From the NCBI GenBank assembly GCA_017940565.1, contig JAGAYH010000027.1, positions 1-47,837 on the forward strand: a stretch of 47,837 nt of DNA, in the 5' to 3' direction. The DNA is from Bacteroidaceae bacterium (GTDB lineage Bacteria > Bacteroidota > Bacteroidia > Bacteroidales > Bacteroidaceae). The notes under the pieces were generated by a model, which saw nothing but the letters and a program-made list of their open reading frames with translations, ran no database searches and was not told the DNA's origin. The position numbers and the translations under genes are program-made. Shown here in pieces: positions 20,371 to 24,404 of the stretch. The stretch's first letter is position 1. Each line of letters starts with the position of its first letter.

Positions 20371-20934
20371 ATGAGACATAATAAGAAATTCAATCATCTG
20401 AGTCGTACCGCCTCTCACCGCGCAGCCATGCTCTCCAACATGGCCTGCTCGCTCATCAAGCACAAGAGAATCACTACGACCGTAGCCAAGGCCAAAGCCT
20501 TGAGAAAGTACGTTGAGCCCATCATCACCAAGTCCAAGAACGACACGACCCACTCCCGCCGCGTCGTCTTCAGCTACCTGCAGGACAAGGAAGCCATCAA
20601 GGAACTCTTCAAAGAAGTATCCGAAAAGATTGGCGGCCGTCCCGGTGGTTACACCCGCATCATCAAGCTCGGACAGCGTCAGGACGACGGTGCAGAAATG
20701 TGCTTCATCGAACTCGTTGACTTCGACGAGAACATGGCCAAGACCGAGAAGAAGGCCCGCCGCACCCGTCGTGGAGGCCGTCGTGCCGCCGAAAAGCCCG
20801 CAGAAGAGGTGAAAGCCGCTGAAGAAGTAGCCGAAGCCCCCGCTGAGGAAGCCGCTCCTGCTGCCGAAGAGGCACCCGCCGAGGCTCCCGCCGAAGAGGC
20901 TGCTCCCGCTGAGGAAGCACCCGCTGCTGAATAA
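20371..20934 (+). CDS. rplQ: 50S ribosomal protein L17 with long Ala/Glu/Pro tail
   Basis: L17 sits near the tunnel exit. Residues 1-122 of this 187-residue protein match the family, starting [20 protein letters not shown]. The rest is a basic stretch ([14 protein letters not shown]) followed by about 45 residues almost entirely Ala, Glu and Pro, likely a disordered, surface-exposed tail. Related tails occur in Bacteroidota L17 proteins. The last codons are repeated at 21922, as part of a 94-base duplication. It closes the ribosomal block. Confidence 0.95.
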
Positions 20935-20999
20935 TTGATTTTGAAAAGACAATCGATATCAGTAAAAAGCCCTGGACTACGGTCCGGGGCTTTTTGTTG
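20906..20999 (+). repeat. 94-base direct repeat, copy 1 (rplQ end plus terminator)
   Basis: This stretch covers the last codons of rplQ, its stop codon and the terminator. It is identical to 21922-22015. After position 20999 the copies diverge by an extra (GTT)2 in copy 2 and then share GGTAT. The bases between the two copies hold a toxin-antitoxin pair. Confidence 0.9.
20964..20998 (+). terminator. terminator of the ribosomal block
   Basis: A 14-base stem (20964-20977 with 20982-20995, one G-T wobble) closed by a TACG loop ends in TTTTT. It sits 30 bases after the rplQ stop and ends the transcript that began near 2960. Confidence 0.85.
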
Positions 21000-21077: not shown

Positions 21078-21422
21078 TCATAATACTGCAGCAATCCGTG
21101 GAATCTTTTTGAGATGCTCAAAAAAAGACTTGTCGCGTTTTGCAGACAGCACATTATATTTCATCTGTAAAGAAAGCAAGGGCATCGGGTCAAGATCCAG
21201 TGCCTGGCCAATTAGCAGAGCCATCTCGGCACTCAATGGTCGTTTGGCATTCAGTACCTCATTCAACTGACTGGCTGGCACGCCTATCTCGGCTGCCAGC
21301 CGCCGTTGACTGATGCCGCGATACCCCAGTTCGTCTTTTATCACTTCACCCGGATGGGTAAGATAGTGTGGTTCCAAATTATTAGCAACCATTTTGTCGT
21401 CTTTCCCTTCTACGTGTACCAT
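21078..21422 (-). CDS. higA: HigA-family antitoxin (XRE helix-turn-helix)
   Basis: A 114-residue DNA-binding antitoxin predicted to neutralise the toxin encoded just upstream and to repress the operon. It has the HigA opening HPGEVIKDELGYRGISQRRL (about 23-42) and an XRE helix-turn-helix with LAAEIGVPASQLNEVLNAKR (about 42-61). A second in-frame Met at residue 11 is an alternative start. The gap to the toxin gene is 8 bases, so the two are co-transcribed in the toxin-first order of HigBA systems. Other HTH antitoxin names are possible, but the family is clear. Confidence 0.85.
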   Translation of the reverse strand: MVHVEGKDDKMVANNLEPHYLTHPGEVIKDELGYRGISQRRLAAEIGVPASQLNEVLNAKRPLSAEMALLIGQALDLDPMPLLSLQMKYNVLSAKRDKSFFEHLKKIPRIAAVL

Positions 21423-21430
21423 CTTTTATT

Positions 21431-21748
21431 CTATTTGTAATGGTTAGACAATTCTGTTATACTTACCACTTCAGCAATGGTTTTGTCTTCTTCTATAATT
21501 TCTCTGAACACGATGCGATATTGGTCGTTTATCCTAACCGAAGACAACCCCGCTTTGTCACCTCGTAGATGTTCGTAATGCAGTCCTCCATAACGTGCAA
21601 GGTCCATCACATTCTGTTGCTCCATCATCAAGTCCACAATACGGGTGAACTTCTTGACTATTTGAGGTTGAAAGCGGTACTTCTTTTCGGTGGCCTGCCC
21701 ATTCTCATAGAGTTCTCTCAGATAAACTTCTTCAAAGATGACAACCAT
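21431..21748 (-). CDS. higB: HigB/RelE-type toxin
   Basis: A 105-residue small basic protein of the RelE/HigB superfamily; such toxins cleave mRNA on the ribosome. Supporting segments are LARYGGLHYEHLRGDKAGLS (about 51-70) and VRINDQYRIVFRE (about 71-83), the typical beta-sheet core with basic residues, and the C-terminal ITELSNHYK close to the usual ...HYR/K ending. It is the first gene of the operon, preceded by a promoter and a dyad. It is less certain whether this exact member is active. Confidence 0.83.
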   Translation of the reverse strand: MVVIFEEVYLRELYENGQATEKKYRFQPQIVKKFTRIVDLMMEQQNVMDLARYGGLHYEHLRGDKAGLSSVRINDQYRIVFREIIEEDKTIAEVVSITELSNHYK

Positions 21749-21839: not shown

Positions 21840-21921
21840 TACTGTAACCGTTTCATTTCTGGGAAATGCTCTTCTCGTAATACAATTTCAGCGGCTTCCA
21901 TGAGTTCAGGGCGTTGTGCCG
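21840..21921 (-). pseudogene. truncated 3' end of an unidentified gene
   Basis: On the minus strand an open frame without a start runs from the edge of repeat copy 2 to a TAA at about 21840-21842, encoding AQRPELMEAAEIVLREEHFP and seven further residues. The sequence looks protein-like (amphipathic helix) but I cannot name the family. It ends abruptly where the 94-base repeat begins, as expected for a gene cut by the rearrangement. A chance frame remains possible. Confidence 0.35.
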
Positions 21922-22015
21922 CCGCTGAGGAAGCACCCGCTGCTGAATAATTGATTTTGAAAAGACAATCGATATCAGTAAAAAGCCCTGGACTACGGTC
22001 CGGGGCTTTTTGTTG
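21922..22015 (+). repeat. 94-base direct repeat, copy 2
   Basis: Identical to 20906-20999: the last nine or so codons of rplQ with stop, spacer and terminator hairpin, but with no rplQ upstream. It includes a second functional-looking terminator hairpin (about 21980-22011) that now faces the 3' end of the DUF262-HNH gene. Confidence 0.9.
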
Positions 22016-22042: not shown

Positions 22043-23164
22043 TCAGTTCGCTCCCTTCTCGCGGTTGTGGCGCCGGCAGAGCATTTGGCAGTTGTCTGCC
22101 GTGGTCGGTCCGCCTTCGCTCCACGGGGTAATATGGTCCGCCTCCATTTCGTCCAGTTCGTAATGATGGCCGTCGCCGCATCGGGGGCAGACACCATGCT
22201 GGCGTTCGTATGCCTCGCGCTTCATCTTCGGTGTGAACTGGCGGATGTTCAGGTAGCGTTCGTCACGTGTCAGCACATAGGGATAGATGCCTTTTTTACT
22301 CGTCACGTCATCGTCCTGCATCAGGTCGGCAATCTCCGTTTCCAGTACATCGGTGTCCAGTCGGGCCTCGTGGAACCGGTCGTAGAGGCCGCCCCAGTCC
22401 AAGCCCTTCATCTCCTTGCGATACTTCGGAAACGTCAGCTGTACCCACTCAATCACCGCGCGGAAGTACATCCACAGCGCGTTGGCATTTTGGTCGTGCT
22501 GATGCTTGGCCATGTAGCCCTCGATGCTCTCTGTGTGGCCGTCTTTCGTCAGCGATGCCGCTATCCATCGCAGTGCCGTCTCCAGATAGTCCTGCCGGAT
22601 GGGCGAGCCGTTCACATAGTTGCTCCCCAGTCCGTAGGCCGCACAACCCGTCTTCGAGAAGTGGCGCTTGGCATCGGCCAGCCAAGGCCCGGCAAACACG
22701 GCATTCCGCAGCTCCTGGTCCGTCAGCCGTTCGCCGGCAATGTTGATGGTGCGGAACCAGTCCAGCTTTTCCTTATCCGAACCGCTGCACACGTACACCT
22801 GCAGTTCGTAGTCCAATATCTCGTCCTGCTCCTCCTTGGTCAGGTTGTCGAAAAAGCGGAAGAAGAACGGGAAATCGCCGTTCACGTATTGGCAAACGCT
22901 GATGGTCCGCTGCTGCCCGTCCATCACTTCGTAGGGCACTTCGGCGTCATCCTCGCGTCGCGCCCAATACATCACGTTCAGCGGAAAACCTTTGCGTACC
23001 GTGTCTATCACCGCATCGCGCTTCTTGTCATCATAGATAAACTCGCGCTGATAGGGCGGACGGATGTCCAACTTCCCGCCCAGGCCGCGCACGCCGCCTT
23101 CCTCATTATCCATGTAACCCGCCGTCAGTTCCCTGACCGTTACTTTCCGTAATTCTATTTTCAT
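22043..23164 (-). CDS. DUF262 and HNH nuclease, candidate restriction partner
   Basis: A 373-residue protein with an N-terminal DUF262 (GmrS-like/ParB-like) domain: PPYQREF (about 36-42) and DGQQRTISV (about 82-90), which in this family binds and hydrolyses nucleotides. The C-terminus is an HNH nuclease: CPRCG (326-330), ADHITPW with the catalytic His (about 344), DNCQMLC (357-363, with the Asn) and RRHN (His about 366), the cysteines forming a zinc site. It overlaps the methyltransferase gene by 4 bases (ATGA), so translation is coupled. I infer that it is the DNA-cleaving half of a restriction-modification pair; a modification-dependent nuclease is the main alternative. Confidence 0.82.
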   Translation of the reverse strand: MKIELRKVTVRELTAGYMDNEEGGVRGLGGKLDIRPPYQREFIYDDKKRDAVIDTVRKGFPLNVMYWARREDDAEVPYEVMDGQQRTISVCQYVNGDFPFFFRFFDNLTKEEQDEILDYELQVYVCSGSDKEKLDWFRTINIAGERLTDQELRNAVFAGPWLADAKRHFSKTGCAAYGLGSNYVNGSPIRQDYLETALRWIAASLTKDGHTESIEGYMAKHQHDQNANALWMYFRAVIEWVQLTFPKYRKEMKGLDWGGLYDRFHEARLDTDVLETEIADLMQDDDVTSKKGIYPYVLTRDERYLNIRQFTPKMKREAYERQHGVCPRCGDGHHYELDEMEADHITPWSEGGPTTADNCQMLCRRHNREKGAN

Positions 23165-24213
23165 TGCTTGCGTCGAATAAATAATCGTTTGTATAGTCTA
23201 TTCCCATTGATAAGAGGTTGAGCAATACTACTACTTTTGATCCATAATCCGTTTGAAAAGCCTTTACCTTCACTTTCGGTTGCACCTATAATTTCAAACT
23301 GTTCCGGACTATATTTATCAAGGAAAGTGATAGGCACGCCCATCACGCCGTCGTAGTCGTAAGGGATGTCAGCGGTCTTGTCCACATTGATGGCGTCGTA
23401 GTTGTCGTATTTAGGATATTCCTCCGGTGTATAACTCTTATAGAGCACCAATTCTTCGTGACGTTTCTTATGGTCGAGATTGGTAAACCAGCAAATATTT
23501 CCCATACTACGCCATTTTTGCCCTGTTTCATCTTGCCAATATCTCGTTTCTCTTGCTTCGTAGTTCTCAGGAACGCGGAATGCCATGTCTCCGGCTTTGA
23601 AACCCAGCCATAATCTATTTTCTTTGATAAGCGGGAAGATTTCTTTATAGGTAATGGCGTTTTGATTTCCAATAATCAGAAACTTTTTATCGAAGGCGAT
23701 AAGTTGCGCCACATATTCGCGGAAGAGCGAGAAGGGCGGGTTGGTGCATACGATGTCGGCCTCCTTGAGCAATTCGATACATTCGGCGGAGCGGAAGTCG
23801 CCGTGTTGCTTCAGCGTGGAGAGCGCATTGCGGTCGTTCTTCAGCAGATAGCGCACGTCGGCCAGGTCCACGCGCCCGTCGCCGTTGAGGTCGGACACTT
23901 CGGTAATCTCCACCTTGTAAGCAATCTTCTTCTCGTCCGTGCCGTCGCCGAAGTCGAACAACAGTTCGTTGCCCTGCACCGGCGAGCCGTCGAAGCAGGT
24001 GGCGATGAGCTTGCGAAGGCCCAGCGCGTTGAAGTTGAGCGCGAAATACTTGAAGAAATTGCTCTCGTAAGGGTCGTCGCAGTTGCAGAGCACGGTCTTG
24101 CCGCGGAAGTGCTCCTTGTAGTGTTTCAGTTCGTTGGCGATGTCCTCCATCTGTGTGTAGAACTCGTCCTTCTTGGCACGCGCTGCCGCGTGCAAGTTCT
24201 GATTACCTGCCAT
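23161..24213 (-). CDS. EcoRI-family adenine-specific DNA methyltransferase
   Basis: A 350-residue protein resembling EcoRI-type N6-adenine methyltransferases. Visible elements are YTQMEDIANELKHY near the N-terminus, VLCNCDDPYESNF (about 41-53, S-adenosylmethionine side) and the catalytic TNPPFS (157-162). An EF-hand-like insert DLNGDGRVDLAD (108-119) precedes motif IV. The stop overlaps the start of the DUF262-HNH gene. Base composition changes within the gene: the part encoding residues 1 to about 174 is GC-rich, the rest is clearly AT-rich, suggesting that the C-terminal half was exchanged. Its role is probably to protect host DNA from the paired nuclease. The recognition sequence cannot be read from the sequence. 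Confidence 0.82.
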   Translation of the reverse strand: MAGNQNLHAAARAKKDEFYTQMEDIANELKHYKEHFRGKTVLCNCDDPYESNFFKYFALNFNALGLRKLIATCFDGSPVQGNELLFDFGDGTDEKKIAYKVEITEVSDLNGDGRVDLADVRYLLKNDRNALSTLKQHGDFRSAECIELLKEADIVCTNPPFSLFREYVAQLIAFDKKFLIIGNQNAITYKEIFPLIKENRLWLGFKAGDMAFRVPENYEARETRYWQDETGQKWRSMGNICWFTNLDHKKRHEELVLYKSYTPEEYPKYDNYDAINVDKTADIPYDYDGVMGVPITFLDKYSPEQFEIIGATESEGKGFSNGLWIKSSSIAQPLINGNRLYKRLFIRRKQ

Positions 24214-24216
24214 AGC

Positions 24217-24244
24217 ATGATAAGTTTGGTGCGTTGCTTATCAT
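24217..24244 (-). promoter_or_regulatory. hairpin in the methyltransferase leader
   Basis: ATGATAAG and CTTATCAT (24217-24224 and 24237-24244) form an 8-base stem with a 12-base loop ending 3 bases before the ATG codon. It would cover the ribosome-binding region and could limit translation of the cassette, or act as a DNA operator. This is a reading of the sequence only. Confidence 0.4.
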
Positions 24245-24248
24245 CGGC

Positions 24249-24315
24249 AGTGGGCATTTAGAACAAAAAGCATGGACGGACTACATCCATGCTCTAGGCC
24301 CTGAGAATGCCCACT
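24249..24315. repeat. 10-base perfect inverted repeat around the RNA terminator
   Basis: AGTGGGCATT (24249-24258) and AATGCCCACT (24306-24315) are perfect complements. The right arm also lies in the central bubble of the structured RNA, so pairing between the arms would compete with the RNA fold and enclose the terminator. Confidence 0.55.
24265..24292 (-). terminator. terminator of the structured RNA
   Basis: On the minus strand GCATGGA pairs with TCCATGC across GTAGTCCG-type loop bases and is followed directly by TTTTT (24265-24269 on the plus strand as A). The run of T shows that the transcript is read on the minus strand. Confidence 0.75.
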
Positions 24316-24404
24316 TGTACAGATAAGTCACGCCCACGCTATGCGCAGGCGTTCGCGACTTATTCGAGTACAAGTATGTTTGAAATTTCTCAGGTTTCAG
24401 AGCA
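24290..24404 (-). ncRNA. ssrS: structured small RNA, candidate 6S (Bacteroidales-1) RNA
   Basis: Five nested helices can be traced: 24399-24404 with 24290-24295; 24387-24394 with 24300-24307; 24368-24374 with 24314-24320; 24357-24363 with 24323-24329; and 24348-24352 with 24330-24334. Together they make one long hairpin with a large asymmetric bubble (24375-24386 opposite 24308-24313). A terminator follows at once, and a minus-strand TATATTTG promoter lies at 24504-24511, so the full transcript could be about 24265-24497. A long hairpin with a central bubble, own promoter and terminator fits 6S RNA, which binds RNA polymerase; Bacteroidales-1 RNA has been proposed to be the 6S of this order. 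The paired core is shorter than Escherichia coli 6S. The structure is well supported, the name is from memory. Confidence 0.6.

Follow-up and report, generated by a model that had tools for sequence, protein, structure and literature searches.

Introduction

M.EcoRI makes GAm6ATTC, and EcoRI and its methyltransferase recognise their site differently, as is general for such pairs (review PMC4081073). Retargeting a type II pair is difficult, since its methyltransferase and nuclease have to change in concert. Inverting type I systems, for example SpnD39III of S. pneumoniae, shuffle hsdS (PMC7394358), and in a 2026 review specificity change is tied to type I, with on/off switching found mostly in type III and in limited type II cases (PMC13076061). 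DUF262 proteins that combine DGQQR with an HNH-type nuclease have been described as SspE (PMC9646914) and as GmrSD and BrxU (PMC4619093, PMC10952713).

We analysed a pair of genes, here called M and R, in a window of 47,837 nucleotides (the whole stretch of DNA under study), which is contig C55 of a Bacteroidaceae genome of 1.79 Mb, 56 contigs and 63% completeness. M belongs to the same methyltransferase family as M.EcoRI, at about 50% identity; however, the EcoRI nuclease is a PF02963 protein, whereas the partner here is a DUF262-HNH protein and two variable regions of the methyltransferase, VR2 and VR3, differ among relatives. Unlike the inverting type I systems, the locus has no HsdS, HsdM or HsdR; its methyltransferase is a single chain with the cassette at the C-terminus, R measures about 360–390 aa and is of the DUF262-HNH type, and the anatomy of arrays in relatives is what suggests switching. 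R resembles SspE, GmrSD and BrxU in its DGQQR-bearing DUF262 and HNH-type nuclease, but it is paired with a methyltransferase, and its match is to the PF01844 HNH family rather than DUF1524. In BREX, PglX is a specificity-bearing methyltransferase that gives the motif for both marking and exclusion; here, in contrast to BREX, there are only two genes.

We favour, with some confidence, the view that the pair is a two-gene restriction-modification system in which M would carry specificity in modular VR2 and VR3 and R would be a generic nuclease effector. What is new is the modular VR2/VR3 of M; the pair itself is already modelled in PADLOC as type II parts. Our search of the open-licence PMC literature found no description of the M–R pair or of the cassettes, and parts of it may be in REBASE.

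The methyltransferase–nuclease gene pair

Both open reading frames were confirmed on the minus strand of the window, with the following features.

23161..24213, minus strand: M, predicted N6-adenine methyltransferase of the EcoRI family (PF13651), 350 aa; from Pfam, PADLOC and homology
23731..23742, minus strand: catalytic NPPF motif of M, residues 158-161; invariant in 91 aligned M proteins
M residues 71-135, minus strand: VR1, variable region; from the M alignment
23494..23613, minus strand: VR2 of M, residues 201-240, probable specificity region; from the comparison of EcoRI-paired and DUF262-paired enzymes
23194..23289, minus strand: VR3 of M, residues 309-340, IGATESEGKGFSNGLW..., exchangeable C-terminal cassette, probable target-recognition region; from class clustering, tree and pair comparison
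23285..23298, minus strand: start of VR3, TTTGAAATTATAGG, with 2 mismatches to the putative recombination site TTTGAAATCTTAGG of relatives, a DNA match that is not significant alone
22043..23164, minus strand: R, DUF262 (GmrSD_N)-HNH protein, 373 aa, probable nuclease effector; from Pfam and PADLOC
22907..22921, minus strand: DGQQR motif of R, residues 82-86, DUF262 nucleotide-binding signature; from the alignment, role by analogy with SspE (PMC9646914)
22052..22189, minus strand: HNH domain of R with zinc-type cysteines, residues 326-371; from PF01844 and invariant residues

M matched the EcoRI_methylase profile PF13651 from end to end (profile positions 1-345 of 345, E 5.5e-153, 509.8 bits against a curated cut-off of 26.4), and R matched GmrSD_N/DUF262 (E 2.9e-17) and HNH (PF01844, E 2.4e-11). 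A reading of the sequence made before any search (the sequence-only reading) had described a methyltransferase with TNPPFS, residues 157-162 of M, whose gene overlaps that of a DUF262-HNH protein. This was confirmed by the frames, the Pfam matches and a 4-nt overlap of M stop and R start, which share ATGA at 23161-23164; its phrase 'fused by overlap' suits the overlapping genes and not the products, which are not one fused protein. DGQQR and the zinc-type HNH, also claimed there, are present in R with their key residues invariant in all 58 aligned R proteins including that of the window, namely D82, G83, Q85 and R86 and, on the HNH side, C326, C329, D343, H344, N358, C363 and N367. No DUF1524 match was detected in the window R up to E 0.1 or in the 58 R members up to E 0.01.

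The PADLOC model MTase_II (PDLC03297) matched M over its full length (E 2.6e-137) and also matches M.EcoRI, while REase_II (PDLC03418) matched residues 1-370 of R (E 3.1e-137). The suggestion in the sequence-only reading of a poorly characterised type needs qualifying here: in PADLOC-DB the two proteins already bear type II names, REase and MTase, in a listing that says no more than 'type II'. Linked methyltransferase and nuclease genes, one feature of type II systems, are present in this pair. The window M shares 50.1% identity with the methyltransferase encoded on an annotated EcoRI plasmid, but no PF02963 EcoRI-type endonuclease was found as its partner, which is the DUF262 and HNH protein. 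A search of the PDB found no solved relative of M.

A scan of bacterial genomes with R gave at least 557 relatives among the 589 pattern matches listed; the best 80 loci are biased towards window-like R, because only the best-scoring relatives were kept. An M match was present in 78 of these best 80 R-selected loci, the exceptions being L029 and L045. When M was the starting point, a PF13651 score above the cut-off was obtained for 17 genomes out of 395 in the class and for 118 out of 399 in the family. Among 126 M-selected entries, which are part of the places listed in these two surveys and include two pieces of one broken gene (L136 and L141), R lay in the locus in 114, an EcoRI-type nuclease in 8, a contig end in 1 and neither nuclease in 3 (L131, L137, L141). 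The M–R gene arrangement is far beyond chance and the same gene order recurs in many loci: 176 of the 233 M ORFs in the loci end between −25 and +40 nt from R, 42 have a longer gap and 15 are without a downstream R. The linkage of PF13651 with DUF262-HNH that the sequence-only reading had anticipated is thus conserved across genomes in both selections. It had also expected the type to be widespread in Bacteroidota, which it is, although it reaches beyond that phylum; titles of the records with R relatives name Patescibacteria, Clostridia, Lentisphaeria, Alpha- and Gammaproteobacteria and Anaerolineaceae, and R matched 50 plasmid records (E up to 1e-30), including Enterococcus and Variovorax, as well as 5 phage records (E up to 1e-20), one of them partially.

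Long M–R gaps were considered as possible tandem methyltransferase genes and this was rejected, with a complete second M found in L089 only; the other gaps of at least 290 nt contain mostly other genes, broken M pieces or cassettes. Gap genes recognised by eye were GIY-YIG-like, KilA-N-like, Fic-like, HigBA-like and DinD/BRO-like, and at L045 an M tail was visible by eye.

Cassette exchange between loci

The M proteins align well except in VR1, VR2 and above all VR3, which lies between an anchor (GVPITFLDKYNPEQFEI) and a tail (YxRIxIR). A first clustering placed 77 M genes in 33 VR3 classes, and a larger M set gave 44-66 discrete classes depending on which of three thresholds was applied, these being homology-based clusters of short cassettes with many sequences from genome bins; VR2 falls into about 23 classes. 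VR3 classes recur across phyla, one of them being common to records titled Prevotella, Clostridia, Candidatus Chaera, Rhodospirillales and Lentisphaeria.

The islands L027 and L035 share flanking DNA, M cores (98%) and R (98%, 6 residue differences) and have unrelated VR3; at the DNA level the alignment is lost at the anchor and picks up again shortly before R. Two further pairs with R at least 97% identical also differ in VR3 (L017/L020 and L209/L228). Of the 69 locus pairs whose R proteins reach 90% identity, 46 differ in VR3 class, as do 8 of 24 at 95% or more and 3 of 15 at 97% or more, and these counts were unchanged under refined VR3 classes. Judging from sequence comparison, parts of M other than VR3 are exchanged too, though rarely: L010/L006 have R 94% and M core 54% identical, L049/L073 have 97% and 75%, and the M core without variable regions was at or below 70% in 1 of the 69 pairs with R at 90% or more.

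Two observations weigh against an entirely generic R, namely that VR3 differences become rarer as R identity rises and that M, cassette and R are partly co-inherited. The latter follows from a correlation between R and M-core identities (r.78) and from a higher R identity within a VR3 class, where pairs sharing the class have a mean of.71 against.64 under shuffled labels, a value reached in 0 of 2000 permutations. Slipped-strand repeats were rejected as the main switching route, being found in 2 of 203 DUF262-paired M genes (L025, L055).

A fixed-site partner as reference

Some PF13651 methyltransferases are found beside an EcoRI-type nuclease. E. coli plasmid NZ_OW967970 encodes an annotated EcoRI endonuclease, a PF02963 protein, with its methyltransferase, whose VR3 is IKFRKGVDEKDLSINGKCP; M.EcoRI carries this EcoRI-type cassette, and the window VR3 is of another class. 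The EcoRI-type VR3 class occurs in all 18 PF13651 M genes found beside an EcoRI-type nuclease, and these 18 have one VR3 class and one VR2 class, with nuclease identity to EcoRI going down to 62% among them. Within this set the nucleases of L256 and L258 are partial matches and that of L134 lies in two frames; the EcoRI-like nucleases of L264 and L265, whose methyltransferase is without a PF13651-type match, were left out, and 11 other plasmid records, most of them near-identical to included ones, lie outside the sample. For the DUF262-paired group we required an M ORF of 318 aa or more that does not run off a contig and is followed by R; of the 233 M ORFs 203 qualified, and they vary freely in VR2 and VR3.

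Pairs within each group were matched on identity over residues 1-308 (.56-.81), a span that includes VR1 and VR2, giving 121 EcoRI-paired pairs and 6455 matched DUF262-paired pairs; region means of the latter come from a sample of 1500. Mean VR3 identity was.79 in EcoRI-paired against.11 in DUF262-paired enzymes, with an identity of at least.5 in 121 of 121 against 190 of 6455 pairs, and mean VR2 identity was.78 against.35, whereas three control regions agreed between the groups (.73/.74,.78/.77 and.76/.70, EcoRI-paired first). VR1 went in the opposite direction (.35 against.52); being less conserved in EcoRI-paired M, it was rejected as a specificity region.

When a tree was built from the M core alone, with the variable regions removed (221 tips), the 18 EcoRI-paired tips fell into a single clade, so the freeze of their VR2 and VR3 is one evolutionary comparison and not 18. 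The tree carries 129-131 VR3 changes, of which 0 fall in this clade against about 12.2 expected (Poisson P about 5e-6), while each of 19 DUF262-only clades of 14-24 tips, which are partly nested and not independent, has at least 3. For VR2 the clade has 0 changes against 6.1 expected (P.002), a weaker case than VR3 because some DUF262-only clades of similar size show 0 or 1 VR2 change.

Because the fixed-site nuclease freezes VR2 and VR3 and the DUF262-HNH protein does not, target specificity probably resides in VR2 and VR3, and R probably lacks a fixed recognition specificity. Of the earlier claim, the two-gene restriction-modification system is the simplest reading, but R is probably no simple substitute, as that claim had it, for a site-specific type II enzyme. 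The EcoRI-type VR3 is also present in fifteen DUF262-paired M genes; by the VR2 classes, L086 and L112 are the only DUF262-paired M genes with the EcoRI VR2. The question is directly testable, because the EcoRI cassette occurs in both EcoRI-paired and DUF262-paired enzymes.

We also tried to learn which motif the window cassette reads by way of a partner of fixed specificity, and this failed. The candidate was Campylobacter plasmid L267, with a window-type cassette beside a 201-aa protein for which we found no Pfam family up to E 1, noise only in PADLOC and nothing in the PDB; the M partners in L266 and L268 gave no identifying match in profile searches.

Silent cassettes next to a recombinase

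Six loci from five genera (L207, L208 and L317-L320; g2, g208 twice, g203, g3 and g205) contain silent VR3 cassettes between M and R and a tyrosine recombinase after R, with PF00589 matched at E 2e-28 in L207 and E 3.1e-27 in L208. The array cassettes are inverted and some are also direct (one inverted extra cassette in L207; two direct and one inverted in L208), and they start at TTTGAAATCTTAGG, at its TTGAAATCTTAGG core or, for one L208 cassette, at a close variant. In L207 a 22-nt inverted repeat (95% complementary) flanks two cassettes, with TTGAAATCTTAGGGATAAC in common. The putative site encodes the anchor end FEILG, so inversion there would give an in-frame exchange. M of L207 carries the ITKTWFG class and stores ITDRQNTS inverted, and L319 has the reverse.

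A search of 399 genomes of the family gave recombinase matches in 38, eight of them at least 64% identical: those of L207 and L208, four with the full system (L317-L320) and two without it, of which L321 is the recombinase only on a 5.1-kb contig and L322 has an R fragment and no M. Around two more distant matches (L323, L324) neither M nor R was found. The layout in the six relatives is shufflon-like, and from this anatomy such arrays may be expected to switch.

Extra cassette-like matches occur in 17 loci in total. L044 has two tandem cassettes after the end of another, seen by eye, with an 85-bp repeat (93%); L091, where R was not found, has two more tandem cassettes with repeats 157 and 190 nt apart; and L108 has one inverted cassette and a broken M. 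L160 and L219 contain apparent cassette remnants. Apart from these five loci and from L207 and L208, the matches come from broken, cut or second M genes. Window-type cassettes were seen by eye in the expressed position in L320 and in silent positions in L317 and L091. The window copy is without an array, its M and R overlapping, with no second anchor and no exact TTTGAAATCTTAGG site found there; a scan of the window for this site with up to 3 mismatches gave 6 matches against 3.64 expected, a number reached in 15 of 100 shuffles.

How the nuclease may follow the methyltransferase

Under the reading that we favour, M would methylate adenine in a motif set by its VR2/VR3 combination, and R would hydrolyse NTP through DUF262 (DGQQR) and cut or nick DNA with its HNH domain, by analogy with SspE (PMC9646914), its action following whatever motif M reads. 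VR3 would be freely exchangeable because R need not co-evolve with the motif, and some relatives would exchange it by an in-place shufflon of silent inverted and direct cassettes with a tyrosine recombinase. The setting of the motif by VR2 and VR3, the cutting and control of R and the switching of the arrays are all what we infer from the genes themselves. If the motif changes and the host is unharmed by R, then R must follow M, either physically or via methyl marks. In the first form, M or an M–R complex would lead R to unmethylated sites, a form that we put forward tentatively. The overlapping genes and the r of.78 suit such a complex, and the L010/L006 pair suits methyl sensing.

In the second form, whose probability is contained in that of the favoured reading and which we rate as possible though somewhat unlikely, R would read methyl-adenine in any motif, as SspE does with phosphorothioates, and would not be guided by M; self methylation would activate or license DUF262, and HNH would nick unmodified invading DNA with no preference for sequence. 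In SspE, DUF262 recognises a modification and the nickase is turned on by its GTPase (PMC9646914), and in L010/L006 R stands beside a very different M core. However, Pfam finds no reader domain in R besides DUF262, a divergent M core beside a near-identical R was as rare as one pair in 69, and gene overlap and correlated identities fit a complex equally well.

It could also be argued that VR3 has nothing to do with specificity, and either diversifies as an exposed surface under pressure from phage anti-restriction proteins or serves R as a docking site. Its extreme variability, its shortness as a C-terminal stretch and its exchange in discrete units would agree with this, but such a role fails to predict that VR2 and VR3, and not VR1, are conserved exactly beside the EcoRI-type nuclease, and we consider it quite improbable. 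A little less probable again is an ordinary type II enzyme, in which R itself would recognise the fixed sequence of M and both would diverge together. PADLOC files both proteins under type II, the partial co-inheritance of M, cassette and R is in its favour, and VR3 is shared in 12 of 15 pairs with R at 97% or more; yet in L027/L035 the cassette was replaced wholesale beside a near-unchanged R, a one-step change of motif by the arrays would leave the host genome open to attack from a fixed R, and true EcoRI-type partners do freeze VR2 and VR3. Least probable of all is that R is a GmrSD-kind type IV enzyme acting on foreign modified DNA and merely travelling with a protective methyltransferase since, although DUF262 is the GmrS domain (PMC4619093), tight linkage to one methyltransferase family would be unexpected and the 58 R members are without a DUF1524 match at E 0.01.

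We return to the favoured reading, a specificity-bearing M with a generic R. If R follows M, an exchange of about 20-90 residues in a single protein would be enough to redirect marking and cutting alike, and this would account for the many motifs that a single R family serves in different bacteria. A methyltransferase family known chiefly from EcoRI would gain specificity switching, and the cassettes would be a natural library for reading out a recognition code. It seems to us an even bet that the pair stands for a restriction-modification kind of its own, spread very widely: a DUF262-HNH effector of universal use would act on any motif that M reads, and the specificity cassettes (at least 44 VR3 and about 23 VR2 classes) would form a combinatorial library that is exchanged horizontally and, in some lineages, reshuffled in place by a dedicated tyrosine recombinase.

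Chromosomal position

In the window the M–R pair sits between rplQ and an L-asparaginase gene. A search for rplQ in 18 other genomes of the same genus gave 12 matches, one of which was too weak (L296), and in the rplQ flanks of the remaining 11 genomes (L285-L295), examined over about 0.1 kb (L291) to 1.5 kb after rplQ, no match to M, R, HigA or HigB was found. L272, the closest asparaginase relative (71%), has no M or R in about 1.5 kb beyond the asparaginase gene. The searches with flank genes were without a match in 8 of 19 genomes on the asparaginase side and in 6 of 19 for rplQ. Because the same-genus rplQ flanks and the L272 asparaginase flank are without M or R, the M–R insertion seems specific to the lineage of the window. 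The same genome carries a second M–R pair on contig C23, in which each protein is 41% identical to its counterpart and the two genes overlap by 4 nt too.

HigBA genes and other neighbors of the M-R pair

In the window, a HigBA toxin-antitoxin pair is bracketed by two copies of a 99-bp direct repeat (98% identical) that consists of the 3' end of rplQ together with the terminator of this gene:

20901-20999, direct repeat, one copy of the rplQ end
21078-21422, minus strand, higA
21431-21748, minus strand, higB
21917-22015, direct repeat, the other copy of the rplQ end

From this arrangement, it looks as if the HigBA pair had entered through a duplication of the rplQ end. HigBA and the system of M (EcoRI-family methyltransferase) and R (DUF262-HNH protein) keep company, because two related loci also have such genes, identified by eye, in the stretch separating M from R, namely a HigA-like gene in L209 and L228, and additionally a HigB-like gene in L228.

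DinD/BRO-like proteins of ~285-289 aa, named by eye, are encoded between M and R in L189, L192, L196 and L199, and between the cassettes and R in the shufflon-like arrays L317-L320; by sequence, these proteins fall into two different families.

Between the asparaginase gene and M, the window contains a strong stem-loop (24190-24320; z -5.56), which corresponds in part to a terminator-like site.

Variation at VR3 and unusual forms of M

The genome-bin contig of L214 ends at the anchor preceding VR3, the exchangeable C-terminal cassette of M, which is what one would expect of a cassette that differs among members of the sampled population. Simple repeats, (CAGA)22 and (AAGAG)7, occur at the VR3 region of L055 and L025, and L045 has a (CA)n tract there; these repeats may provide a second route of phase variation.

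A Lactiplantibacillus plasmid (L266:2180-4279) encodes an EcoRI-family methyltransferase and a C5-cytosine methyltransferase in one fusion (PF13651 + PF00145). On a viral contig (L092:2828-5484), an IS3-like transposase, recognized by eye, immediately precedes a stand-alone C-terminal part of M that includes the cassette, and R comes next.
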